Shown in pieces: positions 18,549-34,679 of a DNA stretch of 64,000 bases. Source of the DNA: Candidatus Aminicenantota bacterium (lineage in GTDB: Bacteria > Acidobacteriota > Aminicenantia > Aminicenantales > UBA8522); the NCBI GenBank assembly GCA_017886205.1, contig JAFNEO010000024.1, forward strand, positions 1 to 64,000. Reading direction: 5' to 3'. The translations under genes and the position numbers were made by a program. The first letter of the stretch is position 1; every line of letters begins with the position of its first letter. The notes under the pieces were generated by a model, which saw only the letters and a list, made by a program, of their open reading frames with translations, was not told the origin of the DNA and did no database searches.

Positions 18549-18915
18549 ATACCGCTTCGACGCGAGCCCATTCCTTCCCAAGGGGTGGGAAGATAGACGG
18601 ACCCTTCATGCTTTGGTTCGAGGGTCTAGTTCCGCCTATCAACCAACCCTAGCTTGAGTTGGGACTTGGAGATGAAGAAGCGACCTCTCGGGTCTAGCCT
18701 TCCCGAAGCGCTCTCCGGGTGGAGCTCTGACGTCTCCGAATCCCAATCATCTTTCCTTGACATCGGCTAACGCAAAACGATAGGCTCTGGAGTTGGCCGC
18801 GGCCGGGCCGAAACTGCGCCCGCCGCACGCCGCTCAACGGAGGCCGCCATGAGAGTCCGCCGGACGGTCAAGACCTGGTTTCTTATGACTTTCCTTGTCC
18901 CTGAGGATTAGGGTC
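18549..18915. other. 367-bp gap with strong hairpin potential
   Basis: No gene is seen. An imperfect hairpin spans 18591-18640 (GATAG-CGGACCCT with AGGGTC...TCCGCCTATC). A second follows (CCAAC...GTTGG, about 18642-18662). TTGACA at 18757-18762 with a poor -10 near 18779 may be the promoter for the gene at 18916. The structured part could be a terminator for the preceding gene or a small RNA; there is no T-tract. Confidence 0.5.
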
Positions 18916-21585
18916 ATGCGCATCCGAACTAGCGTCCCGATCTTGATTGTACTTCTCTGCTGGCCGACTATCCTAATTTCCCAGGAAAAAAGCCACGATT
19001 CCCTAGACGAATTCGTCATCAAGACGCCCGGACAGTTCAACGGCTACACGAACTACTGGCACAGCATTTTTTGGGAATGGCGGCAGTACGGGAATCTCTT
19101 CCAACTGAGCATTCCCGACGTGGCCGGGACCATCGCTCAGAGCAAGGTCGATACGTCCGAGGAACTGGGAATCCCCGGGTTGCGCCTGCAGGAAGGATTT
19201 CTGGCGGCGTTGCTGAGCGCTCCGGTGCAGGAACTCGAAAACCCTCCCTTGGAGGAGGTCGAGAAGACACTCGGCGAGTCAAACCTCCTGCTCTATGTCG
19301 ATGCCGCCACCGAGCTGGGGAAGAGGCTCGCCCAGAAGGATTCCGAGGAGGGAGATTGGCGACGGAGACTCCGGAGTCACCAGCTCAACGCCGCCGATTT
19401 CCGGGACGTCCGGGCGTCCTATCTGGAAAAAGGCGATCGAAAGCTGTTTGTCGTGCTCGCGGAGGCAAAAGAAGACAGAGAGCATTTCCGGCAGCTCGTC
19501 GGCGGCGTCCGCGATGTCTTAACAAAGTACGACCTGCACCGCGGCTGGTTCGGGACGGGGACCCTGCTGCACAGCGTAACCTGCCATCCGGGGCACCCAC
19601 TGGATGTCATCGCCGCCGGGCTCGGCCAGGGCAATGATTGGTTCACCTTCAGCGGCTACATGGACTATCTTCTCCAGGCGCAGCTCCCAGAATGGCTGGG
19701 CAGAGTCGGTCTGGACGTCGTCACCGACGTGGGCACGGGCAAGGCGACCCACAGCTTCGGGTCGGACGCCTATGGCTGCAGGAACTGGGACGGCATCAAG
19801 ATTCAAGACATGCCCACGGAGCAGGAATGGATCCGGTTCGTCCGGGAGCGCGGGGGGTTCATCTTCCGGCCTGTGTTCAGCGATGACTGCGATCCCTATG
19901 AATATGATGGCACCATCGCCATCGAAGGCAATAAGAAACAGATCGACACCGAAGAGAGGCCGTTCATCCTCCAGACCGGCTTGATTCGGGAAGAGGCGCC
20001 GGCGGCCATGGTCCTCTTCGCTCCCCGGGGTCAACACTGGAGCCGGGAGGCGATGTGGGAAGCCATCCTGGGAAGAAGAGAAGTTGGGATCCTCCCGCTC
20101 GGCAAGATGCTCGGGCCAAAGACCTTCCGGAACGCGCTCCAGATGCTTCTTCTCGACAGGGTTTACCTGGAGGACTATTTCGGCGACCAGGTTCAGATGC
20201 GGGCCGACATCGAGGGACGCCTGCTCCGAATCCGGTTGGCCAATGTTCGCGGGGCAGAGATCGCCGGAAACCTGCAAATCATTTCCGCGCCGGAGATCAC
20301 CGTCATGGATCCGCCATCTCTTCAAGTGGTTATTCCGCCGCGCTCGGTACAGGATTTCTCATTCCGCATCCAGCCCGGGCGGGAAGCGATGGGCCGCACG
20401 AACCCGGTGCTTGCGACTTTGACTTGGGCGTCCCATAAGAAGCAAACTCTTGCCATCATGGACCTGCCGCCCGCGATTTCGGTGCACAAGCTTCTCTATG
20501 GACAGTCGCCCGAAGTGGTCTTCCCGGTATCTGTTCACAACTTCGGGGATAACGCCGTTTTTCCCGTCTACATCGAGGTCTGTGCGGCAGCTTCTCCTCA
20601 CAAAGCCGTCTATCAGAAAACGGAAACGTGCGAAGCCCCGCCCGGAGGATTCAAGGAGATGACCTTCAGGCTCCCTCTCAAACCCGGCGCTTATGGTGTC
20701 AAGGTCAACGCGCTCGGAGCTGCGGCGGAAAGCCAGCTGGGTGTCGAAGCCCCCTCCGGGCGGGCGACCTGCACCCCGGTCGACCTCAATAACGACGGCA
20801 TCCCTGAGTACAGGATGGAAAATGACAGCGTGAAGGTGACCCTACTCGCAACCGGAGCCCGGATCATCGAGTACATCGTCAAAGAGAGAAACGATAACGT
20901 CCTGTTCAAGCTCTGGCCGGAAAAAGAGAGCACCGATAAACGGCCGTTCCGGGAGCGGGGCTTTTATCCCTACGGCGGGTTCGAGGATTTCCTGGGGCAG
21001 GCCAGCATCGAGACGCACGGGGTTTATGACGCCGAGGTCGTCAAGACGGATGGCCCCTATGTCCAGGTGCGGATGGCCGCGGATTATTACGGCAATCGGC
21101 TTGAAAAAATCTTCACGCTATACGGAAACTCGCCCCTCGTCGAGGTCCGCTTTGCCCTGACTTTCCGGAACCCGGAGCTGAACATGCTGGGCCCCCAGCC
21201 GATCCTCGCGCTCGGCGAAAAGCACTGGACCGAGGACGTCTTCGTCGTTCCCACAGTCTCGGGACAGCGGGAGTTGCGCATGCGCCCGGAAGAATATTTC
21301 GGCGAAGTCATGTTCCTGAAGGAAGGCTGGAATGCCGGCCGCGATACGGTCGAGGACATCTCTTTTGCCGGCGCCTTTCCAGTGAGCGAGCCGGAGTTCC
21401 TCCACATGTGGATGAACCATCCGTCCAACGGGGAATCGCAACACTACTACGCCGAGTTCCAGCCCTGGGTGCCGATCTTCCAGAAAAATGTGCGCTATTT
21501 ATCATACTATCTCTGGGGTGCCGCAGGATCGTGGGAGAACGCCGTCGCCGAGCTGCGCCGGAGGAACCTGATCACCAGCCGCTAA
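18916..21585 (+). CDS. Large secreted protein of unknown family
   Basis: This 889-residue exported protein does not match a family I can name. A signal peptide ends near ILISQ (about residue 23). The first 430 residues are mixed alpha/beta and contain DVGTGKATHSFGSDAYGCRNWDG-like text and FRPVFSDDCDPYEYDG, rich in Asp, Trp and Tyr. About 430-610 looks like one or two beta-sandwich domains. An EF-hand-like loop DLNNDGIPEYR lies near 626, followed by a C-terminal domain (640-880) that reads like the galactose-mutarotase-type sandwich of glycan-active enzymes. A role in polysaccharide breakdown is possible but unproven. ATG 18916 is preferred over TTG 18895. A strong hairpin lies downstream. Confidence 0.7.
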   Translation: MRIRTSVPILIVLLCWPTILISQEKSHDSLDEFVIKTPGQFNGYTNYWHSIFWEWRQYGNLFQLSIPDVAGTIAQSKVDTSEELGIPGLRLQEGFLAALLSAPVQELENPPLEEVEKTLGESNLLLYVDAATELGKRLAQKDSEEGDWRRRLRSHQLNAADFRDVRASYLEKGDRKLFVVLAEAKEDREHFRQLVGGVRDVLTKYDLHRGWFGTGTLLHSVTCHPGHPLDVIAAGLGQGNDWFTFSGYMDYLLQAQLPEWLGRVGLDVVTDVGTGKATHSFGSDAYGCRNWDGIKIQDMPTEQEWIRFVRERGGFIFRPVFSDDCDPYEYDGTIAIEGNKKQIDTEERPFILQTGLIREEAPAAMVLFAPRGQHWSREAMWEAILGRREVGILPLGKMLGPKTFRNALQMLLLDRVYLEDYFGDQVQMRADIEGRLLRIRLANVRGAEIAGNLQIISAPEITVMDPPSLQVVIPPRSVQDFSFRIQPGREAMGRTNPVLATLTWASHKKQTLAIMDLPPAISVHKLLYGQSPEVVFPVSVHNFGDNAVFPVYIEVCAAASPHKAVYQKTETCEAPPGGFKEMTFRLPLKPGAYGVKVNALGAAAESQLGVEAPSGRATCTPVDLNNDGIPEYRMENDSVKVTLLATGARIIEYIVKERNDNVLFKLWPEKESTDKRPFRERGFYPYGGFEDFLGQASIETHGVYDAEVVKTDGPYVQVRMAADYYGNRLEKIFTLYGNSPLVEVRFALTFRNPELNMLGPQPILALGEKHWTEDVFVVPTVSGQRELRMRPEEYFGEVMFLKEGWNAGRDTVEDISFAGAFPVSEPEFLHMWMNHPSNGESQHYYAEFQPWVPIFQKNVRYLSYYLWGAAGSWENAVAELRRRNLITSR

Positions 21586-21744: not shown

Positions 21745-23106
21745 TTAGACTAAACCCTGCTCCATCATCGCCCGGGCTACCTTGAGGAAACCGCCGATGT
21801 TGGCGCCATTGATATAGTTGCCCGGGGTCCCGTAGGCGACCGCCGACTCCACACAGGTCTTGTGGATGCTTTTCATGATCTGGTGCAGCCGCTTGTCGAC
21901 TTCGTCCCTGGTCCAACTCAGCCGCATACTGTTCTGGCACATCTCTAAACCGGAAGTGGCCACGCCGCCGGCGTTGGCCGCTTTGCCCGGGGCGAACAGG
22001 ATCTTGGCGTCGAGAAAGATGTCGACACCCTCGGGAGTCGTCGGCATGTTAGCGCCCTCGGCGACCACGTACACGCCGTTTTTAACCAGGTTCTTCGCAT
22101 CCTTGGCATTGATCTCGTTCTGGGTGGCGCTGGGGAAGGCGCAATCGGCCTTGATGTCCCAGAGCGGGTTGTGATCCAGGCCCGGCGTCAGGGGCGTGTA
22201 GGTCACTCCCTTGAACTTGTCCGCATATTCTTTGATCCGGCCCCGCCTGACGTTCTTCAGGTCCATAACGAAATCGAGCTTCTTCGAATCGATCCCGGCC
22301 GGATCGTAAATCACGCCGTTAGAGTCAGAGAGAGTCACCGTCTTCCCTCCGAGTTGGTTGATTTTCTCGATCGTGTACTGGGCGACATTGCCGCTCCCGG
22401 AAACGAGGCAAGTCCTCCCCTCGAAAGTCTGCTTTCTTGTGGCCAGCATCTCGGCCGCGAAATAGACGGCGCCGTAGCCCGTCGCTTCAGGCCGGATGAG
22501 GGAGCCGCCCCAGTCCAACCCCTTCCCTGTCAGCACTCCGGTCACCTCGTTCCTTAGCTTTCGGTACTGGCCGTACAGGAAGCCGATCTCGCGTCCGCCC
22601 ACGCCGATATCTCCGGCTGGAACGTCGGTGTCCGGACCGATGTGCCGGAAGAGCTCGTTCATGAAGCTCTGGCACAACCGCATCACTTCGTTGTCGCTCT
22701 TTCCCTTGGGGTCGAAATCGCAGCCGCCCTTCCCTCCGCCCATGGGTAGGGTCGTCAGCGCGTTCTTGAAGACCTGCTCAAAGGCCAGGAACTTCAGGAT
22801 CCCCAGGTTGACCGTGCGATGAAAGCGGAGGCCTCCCTTGTAGGGACCGATGGCGCTGTTCATCTGGATGCGGTAGCCGCGGTTAACCTGGATCTCACCG
22901 GCGTCGTCCATCCAGCTCACCCGGAACATGAGCACCCTCTCCGGCTCGGCGATCCGCTCCAGGATCTTGGCCTTACGGTACTCGGGGTGCCGCTCGAGGA
23001 CCAGAGAAATGGAGTTCACCACCTCATAAACGGCCTGGTGGAACTCGGGCTGGGCCGGGTTCTTGGCCTTGGTCTCGTCCATGAAGTCCTTGACATAATT
23101 GCTCAT
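21745..23106 (-). CDS. gdhA: Glutamate dehydrogenase, hexameric (NADP-type)
   Basis: This 453-residue enzyme interconverts 2-oxoglutarate plus ammonia and glutamate in the cytoplasm. The length and the text YKGGLRFH, MGGGKGGCDFDP (with the catalytic lysine) and VPAGDIGVGGREIG match the E. coli GdhA-type subfamily, usually NADP-linked and biosynthetic. A C-terminal Rossmann domain has VSGSGNVAQYT. AAAGGAG precedes the ATG. An inverted repeat, GTTATGAA with TTCATAAC (23119-23126 and 23164-23171), lies in its leader and could be an operator. It is divergent from a second GDH-like gene whose active site is altered. Confidence 0.95.
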   Translation of the reverse strand: MSNYVKDFMDETKAKNPAQPEFHQAVYEVVNSISLVLERHPEYRKAKILERIAEPERVLMFRVSWMDDAGEIQVNRGYRIQMNSAIGPYKGGLRFHRTVNLGILKFLAFEQVFKNALTTLPMGGGKGGCDFDPKGKSDNEVMRLCQSFMNELFRHIGPDTDVPAGDIGVGGREIGFLYGQYRKLRNEVTGVLTGKGLDWGGSLIRPEATGYGAVYFAAEMLATRKQTFEGRTCLVSGSGNVAQYTIEKINQLGGKTVTLSDSNGVIYDPAGIDSKKLDFVMDLKNVRRGRIKEYADKFKGVTYTPLTPGLDHNPLWDIKADCAFPSATQNEINAKDAKNLVKNGVYVVAEGANMPTTPEGVDIFLDAKILFAPGKAANAGGVATSGLEMCQNSMRLSWTRDEVDKRLHQIMKSIHKTCVESAVAYGTPGNYINGANIGGFLKVARAMMEQGLV

Positions 23107-23252: not shown

Positions 23253-23281
23253 TTGACTTTTGCCAGGGCTCAGTTTATTTT
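23253..23281 (+). promoter_or_regulatory. Promoter of the GDH-paralog / ATP-grasp operon
   Basis: TTGACT (23253-23258) and TATTTT (23276-23281) are spaced by 17 bp, 27 bp ahead of the ATG at 23308. It serves an operon of three overlapping genes and is divergent from gdhA. Confidence 0.6.
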
Positions 23282-23307
23282 TAAAAGAAAAAGAGAGGAA
23301 AGACGGC

Positions 23308-24594
23308 ATGGGCAAAGAGGCGTTCAATTCGTTTGTTACCGCTCAATTCCAGTTCGACCGGACGGCGGAATGGCTGGGGCTGGACCTGCCGACCCGCGAG
23401 CTCCTCCGCTCTCCTTTGAAAGAGCATCAATTCCTCATCCCCCTCCGGATGGACGACGGCAGCGTCAGGGTCTTCCGCGGCTTCCGCGTGCTTCACAACG
23501 ACGCCCGCGGACCGGGCAAGGGAGGCATCCGGTTTCATCCCCATGAGACCATCGATACCATCCGCGCCCTGGCCATGTGGATGACGTGGAAGTGCGCTCT
23601 GTTGGATATCCCGCTCGGTGGAAGCAGCGGCGGCGTCGCCTGCGACCCTCACTACTTAACTCTACGAGAGCAGGAGCAGCTCTGCCGGAGCTGGGTCAAG
23701 CGGCTCGTTCACGAACTCGGTCCCCAGGTCGATGTCCCAGCCCCTGACATCATGACCGGCGCCCAGCACATGCTCTGGATGCTCGACGAATACGAATCCC
23801 TGCGCGGGGAGAAGGTCCCCGGGTTTATCACCGGGAAGCCGGTCGGGATGGGCGGCTCCGTCGGCCGCCTCGAGGCTGCCGGCTTTGGCCTGGTCTTCGC
23901 CCTGCGCGAAGCGCTCAAGGAGCTGGACATGTCGGCAGACGGAGCGACGGCGAGCGTCCAGGGATTCGGCAACGTCGCCCAGCACGCCGTCCGCCTTTTC
24001 GAGCAGATCGGCGGCCGGGTGGTCTGTGTATCCTGCTGGGACCAGAAAGACGCCGTCTCCTATGCCTATAAAAAAGAGCCCAGTATCGAAGTCCAGGCTC
24101 TGGCCGGGATCACGGACCGCTTCGGCGGGATCGACAAGGAGAAGGCCGCAAAAATGGGGTACGACGTTCTCCCCGGAGAAGCCTGGCTATCCCAGGACGT
24201 GGACATCCTCATCCCCGCGGCCGTCGAGAACCAGATCACAGAGGAGAATGTGCAGGTTATCCATCGGCGCGTCCGGGTCATCGCCGAAGGGGCTAATGGT
24301 CCGACCACCGTCGGCGCCGATCGGACGATCGGCGAGCGGGGCATCCTCGTCATCCCGGATATCCTGGCCAACGCCGGGGGAGTCACCTGCAGCTACTTCG
24401 AACAGGTCCAGAGCAACATGAACTACTACTGGGAGAAGGACGAGGTCCTCGGGAAGCTCGACGTCAAGATGACCTCTGCCTTCAACGATGTCCTCGAGTT
24501 CGCCAAGAAAAAGAACCTGCCGATGAGAAACGCGGCCTTTTCCATCGCCGTGGCACGAGTGGCCCAGGCCTGCAAGGACCGCGGGTGGGTTTGA
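23308..24594 (+). CDS. Glutamate dehydrogenase paralog lacking the catalytic lysine
   Basis: This 428-residue protein has the full Glu/Leu/Phe/Val dehydrogenase layout of the GudB/RocG type: KGGIRFHP, VPAPDIMT, QGFGNVAQ, AAVENQITEEN, EGANGPTT and ANAGGVT. However, the GGxKGG motif reads GGSSGG, so the catalytic lysine is replaced by serine. The GRxxATG motif reads GRLEAAG. Such changes should abolish normal dehydrogenase activity and suggest a regulatory or sensor subunit, as in GDH pairs where one subunit is regulatory. ATG 23308 follows GAGAGG; the track start 23260 adds residues overlapping the promoter. It overlaps the next gene by 10 nt, so its output is tied to the ATP-grasp proteins. 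Confidence 0.9.
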   Translation: MGKEAFNSFVTAQFQFDRTAEWLGLDLPTRELLRSPLKEHQFLIPLRMDDGSVRVFRGFRVLHNDARGPGKGGIRFHPHETIDTIRALAMWMTWKCALLDIPLGGSSGGVACDPHYLTLREQEQLCRSWVKRLVHELGPQVDVPAPDIMTGAQHMLWMLDEYESLRGEKVPGFITGKPVGMGGSVGRLEAAGFGLVFALREALKELDMSADGATASVQGFGNVAQHAVRLFEQIGGRVVCVSCWDQKDAVSYAYKKEPSIEVQALAGITDRFGGIDKEKAAKMGYDVLPGEAWLSQDVDILIPAAVENQITEENVQVIHRRVRVIAEGANGPTTVGADRTIGERGILVIPDILANAGGVTCSYFEQVQSNMNYYWEKDEVLGKLDVKMTSAFNDVLEFAKKKNLPMRNAAFSIAVARVAQACKDRGWV

Positions 24595-26336
24595 TTTTGC
24601 CTGACCGGCCGCCCATTGCGTCCTTCGACCGCCGCTTTTTCACCGGGAAGGAGAAGTTCACGGCCATCGGCTGGGGCGACCTGGGGGGAAAAGCCCACGG
24701 GTTGGCCCTGATAAGGGATATCCTGGAGAGTCGGCTGGCCGAGCAGTTTCGCCCCGAGATAGAAATCAACATCCCCACGCTGACTGTGATCACGACCGAT
24801 TTTTTCGACCTATTCATGGAACAGAACGGTCTCTACGACCTGGCCCTCTCCAACCTCCGGGACGATCTCATCGCCGGGGCCTTCCAGAAGGCCGACCTCC
24901 CCGCCCAACTCGTCGGCGACCTTCGCGCCCTGATCGCCCAGGTGCAGACCCCTCTGGCTATCCGGTCCTCGAGTCTGCTCGAGGACGCCATGTTCGAACC
25001 GTTCGCCAGCGTCTATGCCACCAAGATGATCCCCAACAACCAGATGAGTCCTGACTCCCGGTTCAACAAATTGGTCGAGGCCGTGAAATTCATCTATGCT
25101 TCGACCTTCTTCAAGGACGCGAAAAACTATATCCGGGCAACGAAGAAGACAACGGCGGATGAGAAAATGGCGGTGATCATCCAGGAGGTCGTCGGGGTGC
25201 GCCGCGGTCAGCGTTTTTATCCTCATATTTCCGGAGTGGCCCGGTCGTATAACTTCTATCCCCTCGGCCATTCCAAGCCTTCCGACGGAATCATCGACCT
25301 CGCGCTGGGCCTGGGAAAGGCCATCGTTGATGACGGAATCGCTTGGTCCTATTCGCCGGCCTATCCGCGGGCGAACCCGCCCTACAACACGCTGGCCGAC
25401 CTCCTCAGCCAGACCCAATCGGAGTTCTGGGCGATCAACATGGGATGGCCGGCGGAGTTCAACCCCATCAAAGAGACAGAGTACATGATGAAGTTCATTC
25501 TGGGAGACGCGGAGAGGGACGGGGTTCTTCAATTTCTCGCCTCCACTTACCGGGCCCAGGATGACAAGATTGTCTACGGGATCGCCGAAAAAGGCCCCCG
25601 GGTCATCGACTTCGCACCGATCCTCAAGTTCGACCTTCTGCCTCTCAACGCCATGCTGAAGGAGTTGCTGAAGCTCTGCGAGGACACGTTGGGGAGGATG
25701 GTGGAGGTCGAGTTCGCCCTGACTCTCGACGAGCGCCGGGGGAAGCCCGCCCGGTTCGGTTTCCTCCAGGTCAGGCCGATGGTCGTTTCCTCGGCCCAAG
25801 TCGGGGTGTCCCGGGAGGAACTCACGGGCGAAAACGTCCTTCTGGCATCCGAATCGGCCCTCGGGAATGGCGTCCTGGAAAGCATCCGGGACATCGTCTA
25901 TGTGAAGCCCGAGAGTTTCAATGTTCATTATTCCGAGGCAGTCGCCTCCGAGCTTGAGAAACTGAACCATTGGCTGGTTACGTTCGACAGCCCCTACCTT
26001 TTGATCGGCTTCGGCCGCTGGGGGACCTCCGACCCCCAGGCCGGCATTCCTGTGAATTTTGGGCAGATCTGCGGCGCCAAGGTCATCGTCGAGTCCGCCC
26101 TCCCGGAGACGAGCTCCATGCTCAGCCAGGGCTCCCATTTCTTCCACAACATCACCAGTTTCCGGGTCTTTTACTTCTCGTTAAGAGCAGAGGATCAATA
26201 TAAAATCGACTGGGACTGGCTCAACAGTCAACCGGCCGTCCAGGAGACGGACTATGCCCGTCACGTTCGGCTCTCCTCACCCTTGAAGATCAAGGTCGAC
26301 GGGACCACCAGCCGGGGAGTGATTCGCCATGACTGA
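24585..26336 (+). CDS. PEP/pyruvate-binding ATP-grasp protein A (PPDK N-terminal-like)
   Basis: This 583-residue cytoplasmic protein resembles the N-terminal nucleotide-binding domain of PEP synthase and pyruvate phosphate dikinase. LGGKAHGL (33-40) and IRSSSLLED (126-134) are the family's ATP-grasp motifs. The swivelling phosphohistidine domain and the PEP-binding barrel of true PEP synthases are absent. A C-terminal block GFGRWGTSDP (near 475), followed by SQGSHFF, recurs in the two other paralogs here. GTG 24585 follows AAGGA and overlaps the GDH paralog by 10 nt; the next gene overlaps by 8 nt. The reaction is unknown: ATP-dependent phosphotransfer or nucleotide sensing are both possible. 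Confidence 0.82.
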   Translation: MGLILPDRPPIASFDRRFFTGKEKFTAIGWGDLGGKAHGLALIRDILESRLAEQFRPEIEINIPTLTVITTDFFDLFMEQNGLYDLALSNLRDDLIAGAFQKADLPAQLVGDLRALIAQVQTPLAIRSSSLLEDAMFEPFASVYATKMIPNNQMSPDSRFNKLVEAVKFIYASTFFKDAKNYIRATKKTTADEKMAVIIQEVVGVRRGQRFYPHISGVARSYNFYPLGHSKPSDGIIDLALGLGKAIVDDGIAWSYSPAYPRANPPYNTLADLLSQTQSEFWAINMGWPAEFNPIKETEYMMKFILGDAERDGVLQFLASTYRAQDDKIVYGIAEKGPRVIDFAPILKFDLLPLNAMLKELLKLCEDTLGRMVEVEFALTLDERRGKPARFGFLQVRPMVVSSAQVGVSREELTGENVLLASESALGNGVLESIRDIVYVKPESFNVHYSEAVASELEKLNHWLVTFDSPYLLIGFGRWGTSDPQAGIPVNFGQICGAKVIVESALPETSSMLSQGSHFFHNITSFRVFYFSLRAEDQYKIDWDWLNSQPAVQETDYARHVRLSSPLKIKVDGTTSRGVIRHD

Positions 26337-29300
26337 GCGACCGAAGAACGTCGACACGCTCATTTGGTTCCTGTCCGAACGGGCCAAGGAGCTGAGTTGC
26401 CTCTACAAGATCGAGGAGCTCCTGAACAAACCGGACCCGAACCTGGCCGATATCTGCAGAGGGGTCATCGAGGCCATTCCGCCCGGCTGGCAGTACCCGG
26501 ATATCTGTATCGCCAAGATCACCCTGGAAGGGCATTCCTGCCAGTCGGCCAATTTCCAGGAAACACCGTGGGTCCAGTTCGCCGACATCAAGGTCCAGGA
26601 CAAAAAGGTCGGGAGGTTAAGCGTCTACTACACGGCGGAGATGCCTCATGCCGACGATGGGCCTTTCCTGAAAGAGGAGACAAAACTCCTGGGGACGATC
26701 GTCGAGAGGCTCGGACACTACCTCCTCTATTCCCGGATGAAGCAGGCTTACCAGGATTACCAGTCGGCCCGGCTGGACGTCGCGGCCCACAAGGCGGAAG
26801 AATGGCGGATGGCCTTGAATTTCCTGCGCCAGACCAACAAGAACCTATTCCTCGGTATCTCCCGCCGCATGCTCAACTTCCTCAGCTGGAGCGGCATCCA
26901 GGAAGCCGAGAAGATCCTCCAGAAATCGCTGGCCGGCCAGAAGGGCCGGACGGCGGGCTATCCGGAAGACGACAACCGTCCTTATCAAGTGGCCTTATCC
27001 ACTTTTACCGAGAAGCTGAGCGATGAGACCTTCCGGCTGGCGGCCAAGCACCTGACCGGCGAACAAATCCTCGTCAACATCCAGAAGTGGATTCAGGAGG
27101 ACCGGCTGAGCTTTCTCGTCCAGGTGACCAACAGGAACCTCTCCCTGACTCAAGTCGTCGACGCTATCCGGAGATACCATCACATCGCCGCCGAGGGGAT
27201 CGAGCTTCCCGCGGCCAGCAAGCGCGGCGTCCTGGTTTCTTTGATCCAGCGTTTTCTATCCGACCAGCCCGAGTTTATTCATACCGCCGTCGACCACGTC
27301 GAGATCGACGACTTCTACGAGATCCTGGACCACATCGTCTTCTCGCCGGAAAGCCTGGGCAAGCTCGGCGGGAAGAGCACGGGGCTCTATCTCGCCAAGC
27401 ACATCCTCAAGAGGTCCGCCGAATCGCTGAGTCATTTCGGAGAAATCAAAGTTCCCAAGACGTGGTATATCACCTCGGACGGGCTCCTGAGTTTTCTTTC
27501 CCATAACAACCTCAACGAGGTGGTCGAACAGAAATACAAGGACATTGACCAGGTCCGGCTGGAGTACCCCCACATCATCCAGACGTTCAAGAACTCGCCT
27601 TTCCCGACTGACATCATCCAGGGGCTGTCCATGGTCCTGGATGACTTCAAGGACCAGCCCATCATCGTCCGCAGCTCGAGCCTGCTCGAGGATCGGACGG
27701 GGGCCTCCTTTTCGGGGAAATACAAGAGCCTCTTCCTGGCCAACCAGGGCGGCAAGCAGGAGCGGCTGGAAGCCCTGAAGGAGGCCACCGCCGAGGTCTA
27801 CGCCTCGACCTACGGGCCGGACCCCATCGGCTACCGGGCGGAGCGCGGGCTGCTCGATTTCGCCGAAGAGATGGGCATCATGATCCAGGAAGTCGTGGGC
27901 ACCCGGGTAGGACATTATTTCTTCCCGTCCTTCGCCGGCGTCGTGTTCAGCCGGAATGAATTCCGCTGGTCGCCGAGGATCAAGCGCGAGGACGGCCTCC
28001 TGCGATTGGTGCTGGGGCTGGGGACACGGGCCGTCGACCGGACGAGCGACGACTACCCCGTCCTGATCGCACCCGGGCAGGTCGGCCTCCGGGTCAATGT
28101 CACGGCGGACGAGGTCGTCCGCTATGCGCCCAAGAAGGTCGACGTTATTAACTTGAAAACAAACAGCTTCGAGACCATCGAAATCAAAGAGCTGCTGAAG
28201 AAATGCGGCGAGGGCATTCCGGCCGTCGATAAGATCGTTTCCGTCTACGACGGCCAGTGCCTCCGGAAGCCCCTGGGGAGGGCGGTCGATTTCGAGAAAG
28301 ACGACCTCGTGGTCACGTTTGAAGGCCTGGTCAGCGAGACCTCGTTTATCCCCCAGCTCCGGCAGGTCATGCGGCTCTTGGAAGAAAAGCTCCAGTCTCC
28401 GGTGGACATCGAATTCGCCTCCGACGGCCAGAGCTTTTACCTCCTCCAGTGCCGACCGCAAAGCTTCATGGAGGGCGGCGGACCGGCCCGCATTCCCAAG
28501 GACCTGCCCAAAGAGAGTATCGTCTTCCTGGCCAACCGGTATATCTCCAACGGCAGCCTGCCCGACATCACCCATATTGTCTATGTGGACCCGGAGAGCT
28601 ACGACGGTCTCTCCAGCCAGGCGGACCTGCTGGCCGTGGGACGCGCGGTCGGCCGGCTGAACAAGCTCCTGCCGCGGCGCCGCTTCATCCTGATGGGGCC
28701 GGGCCGCTGGGGAAGCCGGGGAGACATCAGGCTCGGCGTCAAGGTCTCCTACTCGGACATCTCGAACACGGCCGCTCTGGTGGAGATCGCCCGGAAGAAA
28801 GGAAACATTCTCCCCGATCTCTCCTTCGGCACCCACTTCTTCCAGGACCTGGTGGAGGCCGAGATTCGCTACCTTCCTCTCTACCCCGACGAGCACGGAA
28901 CCCTCTTCCAGGAAAGCTTCCTCAGGGACTCGCCGAACATCCTCCCCCGCGTCTTGCCCGAGCATGCGGATATCGCGGATACCGTCAGGGTGATCGACGT
29001 AGCCGAGGCCGCCGGAGGGAAGGTGCTCCGCATCCTGATGAACGCCGACCTCGACGAAGCCGTGGGATTTCTCGTCGACCCCCGCATCGACCCTCCCTTA
29101 GCTCCGCTCTCGAAAGAGATGGAGAAAAAACGGGCCGAGAACCATTGGGCCTGGCGGCTCGAGATGGCCGAACACATCGCCTCAAAGTTGGACCCCGGGC
29201 GCTTCGGCGTCCAGGCCATGTACGTGATCGGCAGCACCAAGAACGCTACGGCCGGCCCGCAGAGCGACATCGACCTCCTCGTCCATTTCCGGGGCACCAA

Positions 29301-29535
29301 GAAGCAACGACAGGACCTGATGATCTGGATGGAGGGCTGGAGTCTGTCTCTAGACGAGATGAATTTCCATAAGACGGGCTTGAGGAGCGGCGGAATCCTG
29401 GATGTCCATCTGGTCACGGATGAGGACATCGCCAACAGGACAAGCTATGCGGTGAAGATCGACGCCGTTACCGATGCGGCCAGGCCTTTGCTGCTCAAAG
29501 ACGGCGCCTGCCAACCGGACAGAGAGCGCTCCTAG
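26329..29535 (+). CDS. GAF-like / PEP-pyruvate-binding / nucleotidyltransferase fusion protein B
   Basis: This 1068-residue multidomain protein ends the operon. Residues 1-140 read like the GAF-type sensor module found ahead of histidine kinases (LYKIEELLNKP, IPPGWQYPDIC). A helical linker follows to about 340. The ATP-grasp domain has LGGKSTGL near 345 and VRSSSLLEDRTG near 446. The shared block GPGRWGS (near 790) and FGTHFF (near 833) comes next. The C-terminus (about 940-1068) is a nucleotidyltransferase with GST...SDIDLL near 966, the GSx-DxD signature of MNT-like enzymes. No kinase or phosphohistidine domain is present. The fusion suggests sensing coupled to nucleotidyl transfer onto a partner, possibly GDH; that target is inference. 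Confidence 0.82.
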   Translation: MTERPKNVDTLIWFLSERAKELSCLYKIEELLNKPDPNLADICRGVIEAIPPGWQYPDICIAKITLEGHSCQSANFQETPWVQFADIKVQDKKVGRLSVYYTAEMPHADDGPFLKEETKLLGTIVERLGHYLLYSRMKQAYQDYQSARLDVAAHKAEEWRMALNFLRQTNKNLFLGISRRMLNFLSWSGIQEAEKILQKSLAGQKGRTAGYPEDDNRPYQVALSTFTEKLSDETFRLAAKHLTGEQILVNIQKWIQEDRLSFLVQVTNRNLSLTQVVDAIRRYHHIAAEGIELPAASKRGVLVSLIQRFLSDQPEFIHTAVDHVEIDDFYEILDHIVFSPESLGKLGGKSTGLYLAKHILKRSAESLSHFGEIKVPKTWYITSDGLLSFLSHNNLNEVVEQKYKDIDQVRLEYPHIIQTFKNSPFPTDIIQGLSMVLDDFKDQPIIVRSSSLLEDRTGASFSGKYKSLFLANQGGKQERLEALKEATAEVYASTYGPDPIGYRAERGLLDFAEEMGIMIQEVVGTRVGHYFFPSFAGVVFSRNEFRWSPRIKREDGLLRLVLGLGTRAVDRTSDDYPVLIAPGQVGLRVNVTADEVVRYAPKKVDVINLKTNSFETIEIKELLKKCGEGIPAVDKIVSVYDGQCLRKPLGRAVDFEKDDLVVTFEGLVSETSFIPQLRQVMRLLEEKLQSPVDIEFASDGQSFYLLQCRPQSFMEGGGPARIPKDLPKESIVFLANRYISNGSLPDITHIVYVDPESYDGLSSQADLLAVGRAVGRLNKLLPRRRFILMGPGRWGSRGDIRLGVKVSYSDISNTAALVEIARKKGNILPDLSFGTHFFQDLVEAEIRYLPLYPDEHGTLFQESFLRDSPNILPRVLPEHADIADTVRVIDVAEAAGGKVLRILMNADLDEAVGFLVDPRIDPPLAPLSKEMEKKRAENHWAWRLEMAEHIASKLDPGRFGVQAMYVIGSTKNATAGPQSDIDLLVHFRGTKKQRQDLMIWMEGWSLSLDEMNFHKTGLRSGGILDVHLVTDEDIANRTSYAVKIDAVTDAARPLLLKDGACQPDRERS

Positions 29536-30389
29536 ATCAACTCCCGGGTGGCGGCGTCCAAGCTATCGGGATCGAAGCGGACGAGCGAGAGTTCGGGTCC
29601 GTCGTGAGCGGCTGAGAAGCAGTGGGTACGGCCGATCCGGTCGCGCCAGGAGCCGGAAATCCTGGCCGATTCATGCACATGGCCGTGAAGAGTCAGGAGC
29701 GGCTGGCGGGCTTTGATGAACCGGCGGACGGCGATGCTCCCGAGATGGCAATCGAGAGGGACATGATCGATCATCTTCCCTCCCCGAGCCGACAAGTCAA
29801 GCTTGGTTTGGTAGGGGGGTGTGTGGAAGAGGAAAATCGCTCTGGCCAAGTCTTGGTTCTCGGTGAACCGGTCCAGATCATCTTTGATCGTCAGATATTT
29901 GATTTTTTGCTCAGAGACGGGATAGGTCCGCCATCCCTCCTCGGGTGAGACGGCGTCCGGGTCGGCATAACGGGACACGTCGTACCGTTCCCAGTCTTTC
30001 AGGAGAAACGGCGTTGGGGGAACATAAGCATAGCCGTAGATGGTGAATTCTCCAAACCCGACTCGGCGCTGATGGATATACTCCCAGACACCGCGGGCCG
30101 CCGCATCCAGAACCGCTGCTTCTTCAATCCGGGCATCGTCATTGCCCATGATCAGGAAGACCCGCGGATAGTCTTCCCCAAGCTCCCGGCGCAATTCCAT
30201 AAGATTCTTAACCAGGAAATCATTAATGAAATCCCGATGCGGAAAATCCAGAGTCTCATGGGCATGCCACGCATGGGGGAGAACGTCGCCGCCGATGAAC
30301 ACGGCCTCGGGCTTTTCCCGGAGGACCGCCTCAAAAAGCGTCTGATAACGGCCTATCCTGCCGTGGAGGTCGGAGACAAAGAAGGTCAT
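29532..30389 (-). CDS. Calcineurin-like metallophosphoesterase
   Basis: This 285-residue protein carries the metallophosphoesterase motifs in order: SDLHGR near residue 7, GGDVLPH near 34, GNDDA (in place of GNHE), LFHTPPY, and LHGHVHES near the C-terminus. It should hydrolyse a phosphoester with two bound metals in the cytoplasm. I place the start at MTFFVSDLHG, 30389, because the family begins there; the track start adds 16 residues. Its stop codon shares the palindrome CTAG with the stop of the convergent fusion protein gene. It may lie downstream of the response regulator gene in one transcript. The substrate is unknown; a nucleotide or modified-protein substrate would fit the neighbourhood. 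Confidence 0.85.
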   Translation of the reverse strand: MTFFVSDLHGRIGRYQTLFEAVLREKPEAVFIGGDVLPHAWHAHETLDFPHRDFINDFLVKNLMELRRELGEDYPRVFLIMGNDDARIEEAAVLDAAARGVWEYIHQRRVGFGEFTIYGYAYVPPTPFLLKDWERYDVSRYADPDAVSPEEGWRTYPVSEQKIKYLTIKDDLDRFTENQDLARAIFLFHTPPYQTKLDLSARGGKMIDHVPLDCHLGSIAVRRFIKARQPLLTLHGHVHESARISGSWRDRIGRTHCFSAAHDGPELSLVRFDPDSLDAATRELI

Positions 30390-30471
30390 GGACACAGGGA
30401 GAATGATAGCGAAAATCCGAGGGGGCGACAACTCCACCGAATTCGCCCCTGAGAACGTTCAAAGAAGAGGA

Positions 30472-31194
30472 TTAGGGACCTTCGCCCACGTTGAACTTGT
30501 AGCCGACGCCGCGCACGGTCTGGATGTACCTTTTGGCCTTGCCGAGCTTCTTCCGGAGGCCGGTCAGATGATAATCGACAACACGCTCGGTGATCGGGTA
30601 ACCGTCTTCTCGGACATTGTCGAGGATTCGAGACCGGGTAAAAACCTGGTTGGGTTTGCCCGCAAGAAGGGCAAGAATCTCGAATTCCGTCTTGGTCAGG
30701 GCGATCTTCCGGCCGCCCGCCAAGACCTCGTACGCCCCCCGGTTGATCACCAAGCCGTCGATTTCCAGCGTCGTTTTTTGATCGCCTGCCGACTGGACCC
30801 TCCTCCTCAGAAGGGCCTGGATGCGGGCCAACAGGACCTGTGGCTCAAAAGGCTTCGTAACGTAATCGTCGGCATAATCCTTCAGGCCGGCGACGATATC
30901 CTCCATCCGTTTCTTGGCCGTCACCATGATGACCAAGATCTCGGAGGTGTTGGGATCCTTTTTCAGGATGCCGCAGACTTTATGGCCGTCGATTCCCGGG
31001 AGCAGGAGGTCCAGAAGGATGAGGTCCGGCCTCTCCCTCCTCACCAGCTCCAGGGCTTCCTCTCCTGTCTGGGCGCAGAGGACTTCATAGCCTTCTCGCC
31101 AAAGGATGAAAGACAGGCTTTTCTGAAGGTTGACGTCGTCCTCGACACAGAGAATCCTGGCTTTGGGGGGGGTATCTTCGCTCGCTGCTTTCAT
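30472..31194 (-). CDS. Response regulator, OmpR/PhoB family
   Basis: This 240-residue DNA-binding regulator has a receiver domain (about 12-128) with acidic pair ED/D at 18-20, phospho-acceptor D62 in LILLDLLLPG, and the lysine in VTKPFEP near 112. A winged-helix Trans_reg_C domain follows (about 140-235), ending with the typical YIQTVRGVGYKF. It would bind DNA when phosphorylated. No histidine kinase gene is adjacent, so it is an orphan in this window. The nearest signalling genes are the receiver-domain protein and ATP-grasp protein C upstream, and the GAF-like fusion protein downstream. A promoter lies at 31219-31247. Confidence 0.93.
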   Translation of the reverse strand: MKAASEDTPPKARILCVEDDVNLQKSLSFILWREGYEVLCAQTGEEALELVRRERPDLILLDLLLPGIDGHKVCGILKKDPNTSEILVIMVTAKKRMEDIVAGLKDYADDYVTKPFEPQVLLARIQALLRRRVQSAGDQKTTLEIDGLVINRGAYEVLAGGRKIALTKTEFEILALLAGKPNQVFTRSRILDNVREDGYPITERVVDYHLTGLRKKLGKAKRYIQTVRGVGYKFNVGEGP

Positions 31195-31218
31195 CCCGGA
31201 ATTTGACCCGGCTCCCTC

Positions 31219-31247
31219 ATTTTAACGAAAACCAAACAAAAAGCAAA
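31219..31247 (-). promoter_or_regulatory. Candidate promoter of the response regulator gene
   Basis: On the minus strand TTTGCT (31242-31247) and TAAAAT (31219-31224) are 17 bp apart, about 25 bp before the start codon. The -35 is a partial match. Confidence 0.45.
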
Positions 31248-31263
31248 CGGAATCAAAATAGTG

Positions 31264-31517
31264 GAAGCCACTCCGCTTCCGTGATGACATGGATATAGAA
31301 CGGGGTCCTGTCACGACGCGTCCCCGTCCGACCTCTACGGAGACACTGACCTTATTCCCCCTTGATTGCCCAAGGGGGATAATGGGGGATTAATGCGATA
31401 CAAACAAATTCTAAAAAAGTGTCTCCGCAGCATGTCTGCTTCAGGCGTTGCGGGGACTGGCGCCGTGCCACCCCTCTCTCGATCAGGCTTCAAATCACGG
31501 CAATGGAGGTGCAATCC
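31264..31517. repeat. Dispersed bipartite repeat, copy B
   Basis: Blocks 31264-31337 and 31435-31517 match the two blocks of copy A at 4131-4314 in the same order and orientation, including GTCCTGTCACGACGCGTCCC and GCGTTGCGGGGACTGGCGCC. The spacer is longer here and holds a separate palindrome, CCCCCTTG (31357-31364) with CAAGGGGG (31371-31378), like those at 10521-10701. This looks like one repeat inserted into another. The remaining gap from 31195 to 31576 has no gene. Confidence 0.8.
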
Positions 31518-31576
31518 AAGAGAGTCGGCAGGAAAAATCCCAGAGGACAGTGATCGTTGAGCAGGGTGAGTCGATA

Positions 31577-33019
31577 TCAGATGCGGGAGTCTCGCTCTGT
31601 GTAAACTTTGATCCATTTATCGACAATTTCGACTAGGGTTTGACACAGTCCGGTACCGCTGCCGTGGATGGGGCGGAGCTCCTCGGCCAGCTCGGGATAG
31701 CCCCGGCGGTCAAGCCAGGAAGAGATGATGTCGTTATCGGAGTAAGGCTGAATTTTCTCCGGCGCCAGGGAGCGAAGGGCCGCCAGGAGATCGGGCAGGT
31801 TAAAGACCTTCTTTCCTCCCATGGCCAGTGGGGTCCGGTCCAGGCGCGCTATCTCGACTTGCAGGTTCCTCTTGAGAAGGGTAATGAGCGCGCGGCCTCG
31901 GCTCCTCCTGGGGCGCAGCCTGTCCCCCAGCTCCCGGTAGCTGTGCATGTAGAGCCAGGTCGAAAACTTGTCCTTGTCACCGTAGTTTTCCAGCATTTGG
32001 CGCAGTCGGCGGGCCTCCTCGGTGTCCTTTTCTGCGTCAAGAAGGATCCCGCAGATCTCCCTGATATTCCTGGCCCGCCGGAGCTCCCGGCCGTCATCAT
32101 CGGAAAGGAAGAAGTCTCCCATCCCAGTGAAGTTGAGGATGTACGCTTTGAGCTTCTCGAGGCTCCCAGGATCCCCCTTGGGAAGGACGAAGCCCAGGCC
32201 TTGAAGTTCATGGGCTTCTTTTGCTTTGGAGGCGATAATCACGGGAATGCGGGGAAAGTGCTTGTTCACCAACCGGATGAGGTCACGGCCGGCGCCGCTC
32301 TGAAGTTCGTTTCCTTTGGGGAAGAAGATGTCCGTAATCAGGCAAACGACATCGTCCCCGTGACCCCGGGGGAGCCGGCTCTCGGCACTGATCTTGGACT
32401 CCTCTTCGACCCCGAAAAGAAAACAGAGGCTTTCCTCGTAGGTCCTGGTGATCATGACGTCAGCGCGCTGGCCGATGATCGCATACAGCACCGGAAGGAA
32501 TTGGGAAAACCAGCGCGGCTCGTCGTCTACAATATGGAAAATGAACCGTCTGAGGCTGGAGTGTTTTTTGATGTTGAGCAGGTCCTCCGCCGCCCGGACG
32601 GCCGGCAGGACGATGCTTTCGGGGGGAAAGGCGTCCCGGTTGACGGCGAAGACGAGGTCGGCGCCGGCCGCATAGGGATACTTCTGCCAAGCCGCTTGAG
32701 GGGGTGCGTATTGGATGTACGGCTGGAACGATAAAAGGACAAAAACCGAGTCCTGACTCCGGGCGTGCAGCTTTTTGGCATCGAGGATGGCGAGGCCGGT
32801 ATCATCGAAGAGGAAGACCGACGGTTCTCCGGAGGCGGCGGCCAGCACCGACTGGGGATCAGGGAGGACCTCCGTACTTAACCACGGCATCTTCTCGTCC
32901 AGGACCTTCCTGGACTCACGGACCCGTCCGTCGGCCGCAAAAAAGTACGCCCGCTTGATCTTGACGGGGTTGATGATCCGGGGGATAAACTCATATTCCC
33001 GGGAAGCACGCCTAGCCAT
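31577..33019 (-). CDS. Receiver-domain protein of unknown output
   Basis: This 480-residue cytoplasmic protein has an embedded response-regulator receiver domain at about 165-300. IVDDEP supplies the acidic pair, LITDIFFPKG the likely phospho-acceptor, IIASKA the switch residue, and LPKGDP the lysine. The N-terminal 160 residues and the helical C-terminal 180 (rich in Arg, Glu and Leu: REICGILLDAEKDTEEARRLRQ) match nothing I know. No DNA-binding, GGDEF or kinase output is seen. It overlaps the upstream ATP-grasp gene by 8 nt, so the two are cotranscribed and probably work together. The last part (DKFSTWLYMHSYRELGDRLRP) and SSWLDRRGYPELAEELRP look like two copies of one short helical repeat. 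Confidence 0.75.
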   Translation of the reverse strand: MARRASREYEFIPRIINPVKIKRAYFFAADGRVRESRKVLDEKMPWLSTEVLPDPQSVLAAASGEPSVFLFDDTGLAILDAKKLHARSQDSVFVLLSFQPYIQYAPPQAAWQKYPYAAGADLVFAVNRDAFPPESIVLPAVRAAEDLLNIKKHSSLRRFIFHIVDDEPRWFSQFLPVLYAIIGQRADVMITRTYEESLCFLFGVEEESKISAESRLPRGHGDDVVCLITDIFFPKGNELQSGAGRDLIRLVNKHFPRIPVIIASKAKEAHELQGLGFVLPKGDPGSLEKLKAYILNFTGMGDFFLSDDDGRELRRARNIREICGILLDAEKDTEEARRLRQMLENYGDKDKFSTWLYMHSYRELGDRLRPRRSRGRALITLLKRNLQVEIARLDRTPLAMGGKKVFNLPDLLAALRSLAPEKIQPYSDNDIISSWLDRRGYPELAEELRPIHGSGTGLCQTLVEIVDKWIKVYTERDSRI

Positions 33020-34679
33020 TCTCAGTAACCACCTGGCAGCGTTGGTTTAAGGAATCCGCATACACTGTGACGGGGCGAGGAAAGGCCAACACCGAAAGCG
33101 CCGACTCTGGATGAGTTCCGGAGAAAAGCCACGGGTCGAAGGTATCAAGCTGCGGCGTGACATAACCGTAGATGATATTGTTGCTCATCAGGTTGGTCAA
33201 GAAATGGGTGCCCTGGGTCCCGTACATCCGGGTCTGGAGTCTCTTCTGATCCTCGTCGAACCCACCCTGAATCATATACAGGAAATGGCTGCCGTAGACG
33301 CCCCCGGTGAGGCTTCCTTCTTCGGGCAGAGGTTCGGACCGCCCGGCTACGTCCACTCCGTATTCGAAGATCGCCGCCGCCTGGTCGACGTCCTTAAACT
33401 CGACGAAGATGCCCCAATCCGAGTTCTTGCTCCCTAGGCGTCCGGGAACGACCAAGATGTATTTCTCGCCCCGGCCCTTCATCTCGCGGTTGACCTCGAC
33501 GACCCGCTTTCGGACCGCCGCCTGCATGTCTTTTGTATAGAGGAAAGGAGATACCACGACAGCGAACCTGATGTCCTTCTTGACCCCATGTCCCTGGGCG
33601 TTGGTGATTGAGAGGTATGTATGGCGGATATGTCGGGGAACCGGGAGCGCCTCGAACCTCAGTTCGGGCAACTCGGTTAGCTGGACGATGTGAAAGGTCC
33701 CTTTTCTGTCCTCCTTCCGGGAGAAGTCGAGGTTGAAGACAAACTCGATCTGGAAATGGGAGGATATGCGGGCGGAGATAGTTTCCATGATCTCGGCAAG
33801 GGTTGTCCTGAACCCAAAGTGGTTGTTCTGGATGAGCTCCTCGATCGTAATCAGGTTGTTCTGGATCCCCAGGAGTCGGATCTTATGAAAATTGGCGAAC
33901 CGCACGTGCAGCTTCCTCATCGTCTCCAGTTCTTCCCCCTTGAGGTCTCTGTTCCTGGTCATGTCAAGAGCATAAAAATACTGTTGGCCGGTCCCGATCT
34001 TCAGGAGATCGAGGGGGATCGGGTTGCGGATGGTAGCCATGGAGATGACGGGAAAATCATCCAGGACGGTGGCGTAGCCGTGGCCGAAGGCGATCCGGGC
34101 AAACCCCTCCTTGGGGTTCTGGTTCTTCAGGGCATGGGGAAAAAAGGAGCTCGCCACGCCGGAAATATAGGGATAATAAACCGGGCCAGCGAGCGTGTCG
34201 TCGAAGAGCCCGGGGATGGGGTTGATCACGATGGCCATCTTTTCCCGGCTATCGGGCGGCTGCTTCCGGCGGAAGTCATCATAGATATGGCCGATCGCCA
34301 GGCCAGCCTGAACGACGCGGACCTTCGGGTCGGGATGGTTGTTGGGCAGCATGAAGGAGGCGTTCTCGCCCGCGTGAACGGGGCCGATGCCGGCTGTCGT
34401 GCGGCCCGCCTCATTCGTGGCCGACGAGCGGATACCCAGGGGGATTTCCCCGAGTTCGTCGAGAATCGAAGTGACGTTTAGAAGCTCCTGCTCCCCGAGC
34501 CTGCAGTTGTTCTCCAGGTACCGGTCATAGAAATCCGTGGCCAGGATGCACGTCTTGAGCTTTCCGACCTTCAGGAGGGAAATCTCGTTGATCCTGATGA
34601 GCCCGGCCCCCTTCCCTCCCGGAGCCCCGGACCCATAGACTTTGACGTCGCCTTCTTTCTCGGTTATTGGGATGCTCAT
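33012..34679 (-). CDS. PEP/pyruvate-binding ATP-grasp protein C
   Basis: This 555-residue protein is the third PPDK N-terminal-like paralog. GGKGAGL (21-27) and GIRSSATNEAG (82-92) match the ATP-grasp motifs. The C-terminal block VPGRLGS (near 417) and YGSHFLYMI correspond to GPGRWGS and GTHFF in paralogs A and B, with a longer insert between them. Like them it lacks the phosphohistidine and PEP-binding domains. It leads an operon with the receiver-domain protein, overlapping it by 8 nt. The acidic residue usually following RSSAT is changed (NEAG rather than AED), so catalysis is uncertain. A nucleotide- or metabolite-sensing role with the receiver protein is plausible. Confidence 0.78.
   Translation of the reverse strand: MSIPITEKEGDVKVYGSGAPGGKGAGLIRINEISLLKVGKLKTCILATDFYDRYLENNCRLGEQELLNVTSILDELGEIPLGIRSSATNEAGRTTAGIGPVHAGENASFMLPNNHPDPKVRVVQAGLAIGHIYDDFRRKQPPDSREKMAIVINPIPGLFDDTLAGPVYYPYISGVASSFFPHALKNQNPKEGFARIAFGHGYATVLDDFPVISMATIRNPIPLDLLKIGTGQQYFYALDMTRNRDLKGEELETMRKLHVRFANFHKIRLLGIQNNLITIEELIQNNHFGFRTTLAEIMETISARISSHFQIEFVFNLDFSRKEDRKGTFHIVQLTELPELRFEALPVPRHIRHTYLSITNAQGHGVKKDIRFAVVVSPFLYTKDMQAAVRKRVVEVNREMKGRGEKYILVVPGRLGSKNSDWGIFVEFKDVDQAAAIFEYGVDVAGRSEPLPEEGSLTGGVYGSHFLYMIQGGFDEDQKRLQTRMYGTQGTHFLTNLMSNNIIYGYVTPQLDTFDPWLFSGTHPESALSVLAFPRPVTVYADSLNQRCQVVTENG

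Follow-up and report, generated by a model that had tools for sequence, protein, structure and literature searches.

A family of ATP-grasp proteins with a shared C-terminal block, co-inherited with glutamate dehydrogenase in bacteria and archaea

The window, the stretch of 64,000 nucleotides of a Candidatus Aminicenantota genome analysed here, contains two gene sets that face each other. On the forward strand, a paralog of glutamate dehydrogenase (GDH) designated GDHp (23260..24594, +; assigned by Pfam ELFV domains, a residue table and a tree) is followed by the genes for protein A (24585..26336, +; 583 aa) and protein B (26329..29535, +; 1068 aa). The opposing set comprises protein C (33012..34679, -; 555 aa), protein D (31577..33019, -), an OmpR-type response regulator made of a receiver and a winged helix (30472..31194, -; PF00072 and PF00486) and a calcineurin-like metallophosphoesterase (29532..30437, -; PF00149, E = 1e-9) that is convergent with B. 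Overlaps of 8-10 bp join the neighbouring genes GDH/A, A/B and C/D. The phosphoesterase and OmpR regulator reported nearby by the initial annotation are both present; no histidine kinase was seen beside the window's regulator, which has orthologs at the same place in loci L059 and L060. A canonical NADP-type GDH, GDHc (21745..23106, -; NCBIfam NF006929, 748 bits, above cut-off), is divergent from the GDHp-A-B module, and a canonical GDH also adjoins the module in L059, L060, L061 and others. An 896-aa open reading frame at 18895-21585 begins with a signal-like stretch and is matched by no Pfam domain, even with the threshold relaxed to E<=1.

Sequence comparison places A, B and C in one family, as subfamilies whose homology extends over about 500 aa: BLASTP aligns A with B (29% over 544 aa, E = 5e-37) and with C (24% over 516 aa, E = 3e-21). 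Both alignments extend through a second block, GxGR[WL]G ... G[ST]HF, so that the shared pattern is genuine and goes beyond a fortuitous motif match, and the proposal of three ATP-grasp paralogs sharing this block is borne out. The Pfam domain PPDK_N (PF01326) scores above cut-off in A (117.8 bits, residues 33-407) and in B (203.5 bits, residues 345-718, 27361..28482, +); C, without any Pfam hit, belongs to the family by homology to A only. A profile of 38 A-family members also matches the PEP synthase profile (hhalign, 97.4%, E = 9e-12). All six ATP-grasp catalytic residues are present in B (K349, R448, D693, E695, Q707 and R709) and are kept in nearly all of its 88 homologs. The equivalent set (K, R, D/E, E, Q, R) occurs in essentially all 88 B, 26 A and 13 receiver-fused proteins, the catalytic Asp being a Glu in A. 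C has lost two of these residues in 8/8 homologs (D to Q or L, and the last R to T) and thus may not hydrolyse ATP.

Neither the PEP/pyruvate-binding barrel (PF02896) nor the phosphohistidine domain (PF00391) is matched at E<=1 by hmmscan in A, B or C, in agreement with the initial annotation; A stops at the block. The sensing of PEP or pyruvate proposed at the same time is unsupported, because PPDK_N is an ATP-binding domain and no PEP/pyruvate-binding domain is present. In related genomes, loci L196-L200 encode PEP-synthase-like proteins in which the His-domain motif GGxTSHAAI is replaced by LSPAAIHVV, an apparently degenerate variant.

Not all three proteins are stand-alone, as had been thought: B consists, in order, of a GAF-like region, a helical linker, the ATP-grasp domain, the block and a nucleotidyltransferase. 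An AlphaFold2 model of B built from 45 homologs (pLDDT 83, pTM 0.65) has as its best Foldseek matches the ATP-grasp domains of rifampin phosphotransferase (RPH), PEP synthase and PPDK (best E = 2e-14), and among solved structures the ATP-grasp part is closest to the small-molecule dikinases RPH (5hv3, 5hv1) and HpeI. The N-terminal region (residues about 1-145, 26329..26763, +) gives GAF-like matches, 3p01 and 8w26 (GAF-PHY), with weak E-values. The C-terminal domain (29143..29493, +) is a nucleotidyltransferase of the GSx10DxD type (NTP_transf_2, PF01909, E = 2.8e-6, above cut-off), with Foldseek matches to 2rff and MNT structures that are weaker than those of the ATP-grasp part. It scores 20.6 bits against the MntA-type family NF047752, for which the cut-off is 60, and no HEPN gene was found among the scanned neighbours. 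The nucleotidyltransferase occurs in B at 38 of the 47 loci with both GDHp and B, and no such domain is found at the other 9. A Chloroflexota-rich B subfamily lacks it and is mostly without GDHp; its representatives at L144-L157 are about 780 aa long and have no GDHp neighbour except at L149. In the same-genus genome G002, B is split into two ORFs of 579 and 314 aa (L058:3451-6372), which could reflect a frameshift, an assembly error or a decaying gene.

The shared block (25827..26333, +, in A; 28486..29088, +, in B) matches no sequence family in Pfam, NCBIfam or PDB, in line with the initial annotation, which could not assign it to a known domain, and a search of solved structures with its sequence gave nothing significant. 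In A it carries an invariant GxGRxG, an E and GSHFF (His518), and the protein ends at a VDG hairpin; in B the corresponding motifs are GPGRWGS and SFGTHFFQD (His836), and the G, R, E and H are kept in 88/88 homologs. The Gly-Arg pair, the Glu and the histidine of G[ST]HF are invariant in the A, B, C and receiver-fused groups wherever the columns are present, the histidine in 134/134 proteins. The block occupies the position after the ATP-grasp domain that the His domain has in PEP synthase and PPDK, and by eye the order of motifs is similar: LGNG...DIVYVKP corresponds to SPG...GxV, W.QISGA.VIVE to DW.PIM..A.AIVT, SQGSHFF to GG.TSHAA, and PL.V.VDGR.GRGVI to GD.V.VDG..G.V. Comparison of the A and B blocks with His-domain profiles of PPDK, EI and PEP synthase does not confirm this likeness. 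The block alone reaches at most 1% in hhalign (P 0.05-0.6, not significant), and anchored comparisons reach up to 20% but along inconsistent alignment paths, although S-H falls on S-H and the terminal VDG hairpins align when A is compared with PPDK. Among the 50 Foldseek matches listed for the B model, there is no separate match attributable to the block. HMMs reveal no hidden phosphohistidine domain, but the similar motif order and the invariant histidine keep it a live possibility; we give roughly an even chance to the block being a diverged swivel domain of this kind. A detached His-domain partner was also considered and rejected, since the PF00391 carriers of the window's own genome are one PPDK and one EI-sized protein, neither near the cluster.

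The ATP-grasp family is co-inherited with GDH across many bacterial phyla and some archaea. A search of GTDB species genomes with the block only matched at least 589 stretches, of which 561 were confirmed. The best 80 of these at least 561 confirmed stretches span over 15 phyla, including Acidobacteriota, Calditrichota, Bacteroidota, Ignavibacteriota, Planctomycetota, Bacillota, Spirochaetota, Myxococcota, Chloroflexota and many candidate phyla, as well as the archaeal Thermoplasmatota and Methanobacteriota. GDHp-(A)-B is a recurrent gene order across these best 80 loci, often with the phosphoesterase next in line; phosphoesterase homologs adjoin B at 20 of them and GDHp is present at 47, many of the others being short contigs or members of the Chloroflexota-rich subfamily. 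GDHp adjoins B in many phyla, Thermoplasmatota among them. Among 59 related genomes, in which GDHp orthologs were defined by at least 60% identity, GDHp occurs in 26 and B in 25; both are found in 25, GDHp alone in 1 and neither in 33 (Fisher p = 9e-16). B is therefore present in 25 of the 26 GDH-positive genomes, which substantiates the tie to GDH first proposed from the window. A is found in five of these 59 genomes (G000, the window's own, and G002, G009, G040 and G044), and the examined DNA contains no A-type protein at 26/56 GDHp loci. Its absence from about half of the GDHp loci indicates that A is not essential.

Protein D has no Pfam hit, but its AlphaFold2 model (pLDDT 88) matches the two-receiver protein PleD in Foldseek, and with the alignment it indicates a degenerate receiver, an intact receiver and a helical tail of WL repeats. 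The second receiver has the fold, the acidic residue, the phospho-acceptor Asp and the Lys of a receiver, and D166, D230 and K281 are invariant in 16 aligned proteins. At eight loci (L087, L091, L095, L102, L128, L131, L134 and L137), two receiver-like domains are followed by an A-type ATP-grasp domain and the block within one protein, and at all five Thermoplasmatota loci the A-type protein has a receiver-like N-terminal extension. These fusions bear out the link to signalling made by the initial annotation. D aligns to the N-termini of the fusions through an FSxWL...LRP motif that precedes the ATP-grasp domain. In the FSNWL...LRP region common to D, the receiver part of one fusion (L095:13710-14916, -) weakly matches DUF5752, below cut-off at E = 7e-4; the literature searched makes no mention of DUF5752.

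In a family tree with PEP synthase as the root, a clade with support 100, nested among the receiver-fused proteins, unites 25 of the 26 stand-alone A proteins, the 26th (L125 18698) lying at the base; B forms a separate clade (support 97) and C a long separate branch of uncertain placement. The simplest reading of this tree has receiver-fused ancestors giving rise to the A lineage. D and C together look like a split version of the receiver-fused layout. C occurs in nine related genomes, with D beside it in each locus examined. C/D is a separable unit, since five of these nine genomes have none of GDHp, A and B. The expected co-occurrence of the A/B/GDH and C/receiver operons holds in the window and in three related genomes (G002, G009 and G044), whereas C/receiver stands alone in the other five, which rules out a universal link of C and its receiver protein to GDH. 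In two genomes of one genus, both with C/D but not GDHp, A or B, the gene immediately upstream of C encodes a branched-chain amino acid transporter (L064:10855-12156 and L065:8740-10038).

The window's GDHp retains its ELFV domains, has PLGGSSGG in place of PLGGGKGG and has thereby lost the equivalent of K125, while the other four of the catalytic residues K89, K113, K125, D165 and S380 are kept. In the clostridial enzyme, loss of this lysine abolishes catalysis, and the window's GDHp, judged by these residues, is likely a pseudoenzyme. This part of the initial annotation stands for the window but does not extend to GDHp in general: the lysine of GGxKGG is kept in 49 of 56 GDHp with a readable motif, and these 49 also keep the other four catalytic residues, bar one Asp-to-Glu change and one alignment gap. 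The pseudoenzyme as a general GDHp feature is thus ruled out. The seven proteins without the lysine (window, L058, L059, L060, L061, L087 and L098) have S, S, S, N, Y, M or A instead; all keep K113, and most of the other sites are conserved too, the exceptions being an Asp-to-Glu change in two proteins, a Trp in place of K89 in one and a gap in the Ser column in one. In the GDHp tree, the lysine site requires at least two changes.

A canonical GDH is found in the examined DNA at 6/7 loci with a lysine-less GDHp and at 9/49 with a lysine-keeping one (Fisher p = 0.0009; p = 0.03 for loci with an A-type protein only), a test that is indicative only, since the lysine-loss rows are mutually related and it overstates their independence. 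The seventh lysine-less locus, L058, is truncated by the end of its contig, at which a GDH fragment starts (G002:C43:10-171). A GDHp that is catalytically dead but still ligand-competent, as predicted here, beside a working GDH would suggest a regulatory subunit. The window's genome encodes a third GDH (G000:C35:52709-53929) that is 41% identical to GDHp; catalysis is thus available from two GDHs other than GDHp.

Our preferred reading, held tentatively and with a likelihood a little short of even, is that the module encodes an ATP-driven phosphotransfer or nucleotidyl-transfer regulator of GDH, built on the ATP-grasp/block family without a PEP-binding barrel. It would act as a switch on nitrogen metabolism, assembled from pieces of PEP synthase and of two-component signalling proteins. 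B would partner a dedicated GDHp, with A or its receiver-fused form and the phosphoesterase as frequent extra parts. The ATP-grasp domain would transfer phosphate from ATP to a carrier site, for which the block's invariant histidine is the likeliest candidate, and this phosphate, or an NMP from the nucleotidyltransferase of B, would switch GDH on or off, at a rate set by the GAF and receiver domains and with reversal by the phosphoesterase. GDHp would be partner, target and 2-oxoglutarate/glutamate-sensing subunit, and where a canonical GDH lies next door it would be free to lose catalysis and become a pure regulatory subunit. Homology, domain composition, conservation, operon structure, co-occurrence, receiver fusions and lysine loss are observed directly, and we infer the chemistry, the target and the direction of signalling. 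Several observations argue for this regulator: the ATP-grasp homology with intact catalytic residues in A, B and the receiver-fused forms, the co-occurrence of GDHp and B in 25/59 related genomes and their adjacency across phyla, the receiver-ATP-grasp fusions with stand-alone A nested among them, the loss of the catalytic Lys in 7/56 GDHp, mostly beside a canonical GDH, and the precedent of VadK (see below). Against it stand the block, which neither hmmscan nor hhalign matches to PF00391, the ATP-grasp residues lost in C and the GDHp loci without A. A more specific version, in which ATP-grasp proteins with a diverged phosphohistidine domain would act in bacteria and archaea as non-classical histidine kinases linking receiver and GAF inputs to reversible control of GDHp, sometimes a dead 2-oxoglutarate/glutamate sensor, is a long way from probable.

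The main rival is a metabolic dikinase, in which A and B would phosphorylate a small molecule, as HpeHI, phenylphosphate synthase and rifampin phosphotransferase do, and GDHp would supply a dehydrogenase step of that pathway, with a keto or amino acid as substrate either in place of glutamate or in addition to it; we consider the two together unlikely. The solved structures closest to the ATP-grasp part are those of small-molecule dikinases, a separate ATP-grasp subunit is known from two-component dikinases (PMC12167813), and most GDHp homologs (49/56) keep their catalytic residues. However, A and B have no recognised substrate-binding domain, the GAF and receiver domains and the OmpR regulator suggest regulation, and the dehydrogenase step that such a pathway needs is hard to reconcile with the catalytic loss of GDHp in the window's clade.

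It is decidedly unlikely that the system is instead a histidine-kinase analogue derived from PEP synthase, in which the block histidine would pass phosphate from ATP to receiver aspartates (those of D, the fused receivers and the orphan OmpR regulator) and so control transcription of the cluster. Receivers that have kept their acceptor Asp occur either in one protein with the ATP-grasp domain or in a co-transcribed gene, the histidine is invariant, and the cluster has an OmpR regulator and no kinase nearby; yet the His-domain assignment has no statistical support, ordinary histidine kinases encoded elsewhere could equally drive the receivers as inputs, and the OmpR gene is seen in the window group only. 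Adenylylation as by GlnE or MntA, with the nucleotidyltransferase of B modifying GDH and the ATP-grasp part as a nucleotide sensor only, agrees with the above-cut-off NTP_transf_2 domain, its MNT-like fold matches and its presence at 38/47 loci with GDHp and B, but is very improbable, because 9 GDHp-associated B loci have no such domain and the ATP-grasp catalytic residues, kept throughout, make a mere sensor role unlikely.

In the literature searched, we found neither a description of a GDH and ATP-grasp cluster nor an ATP-grasp-based regulator of GDH; the family with its GDH-linked system is undescribed there. The initial annotation was right in spirit in proposing a new signalling system linked to GDH, although PEP/pyruvate was wrong and its architecture incomplete. 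In nitrogen assimilation, GDH control is a central step, the module is common (at least 561 confirmed stretches) and occurs across domains of life, and its natural loss-of-catalysis variants make the idea of GDH as a sensor testable.

Several known systems resemble parts of the module. GlnE is a GSx10DxD nucleotidyltransferase linked to a nitrogen enzyme, and the module likewise places such a domain, as in GlnE and MntA, beside a nitrogen enzyme; here, however, it is one domain of a large ATP-grasp protein, with no HEPN toxin or GlnE architecture. PEP synthase and PPDK share with the family the N-terminal ATP-grasp domain (PF01326), of which B has all six catalytic residues, but the family has neither their PEP/pyruvate-binding barrel nor a recognisable PF00391, and carries the new block and attached signalling domains instead. 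Rifampin phosphotransferase, the best structural match of the ATP-grasp domain (5hv3, 5hv1), has a rifampin-binding domain that the family lacks. In HpeHI, the ATP-grasp part works as a separate subunit on small molecules (PMC12167813); as in phenylphosphate synthase, the ATP-grasp protein is separate from the acceptor-binding part, a layout resembling that of the family, whereas the aromatic-substrate subunit with a His swivel domain found in those enzymes has no counterpart in the cluster. The mycobacterial protein VadK (Rv1127c) is a PPDK remnant composed of an ATP-grasp and a His domain; it undergoes autophosphorylation on His and has methylcitrate-cycle enzymes as interaction partners (PMC13400623). 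VadK has a clear His domain where the family has a candidate one, no GDH, receiver, GAF or nucleotidyltransferase is reported with it, and the distributions differ. Both are truncated PPDK relatives without a PEP-binding barrel that are tied to metabolic enzymes and proposed to regulate them; if true, our reading would generalise the VadK finding, with PEP-synthase modules recruited as regulatory kinases.
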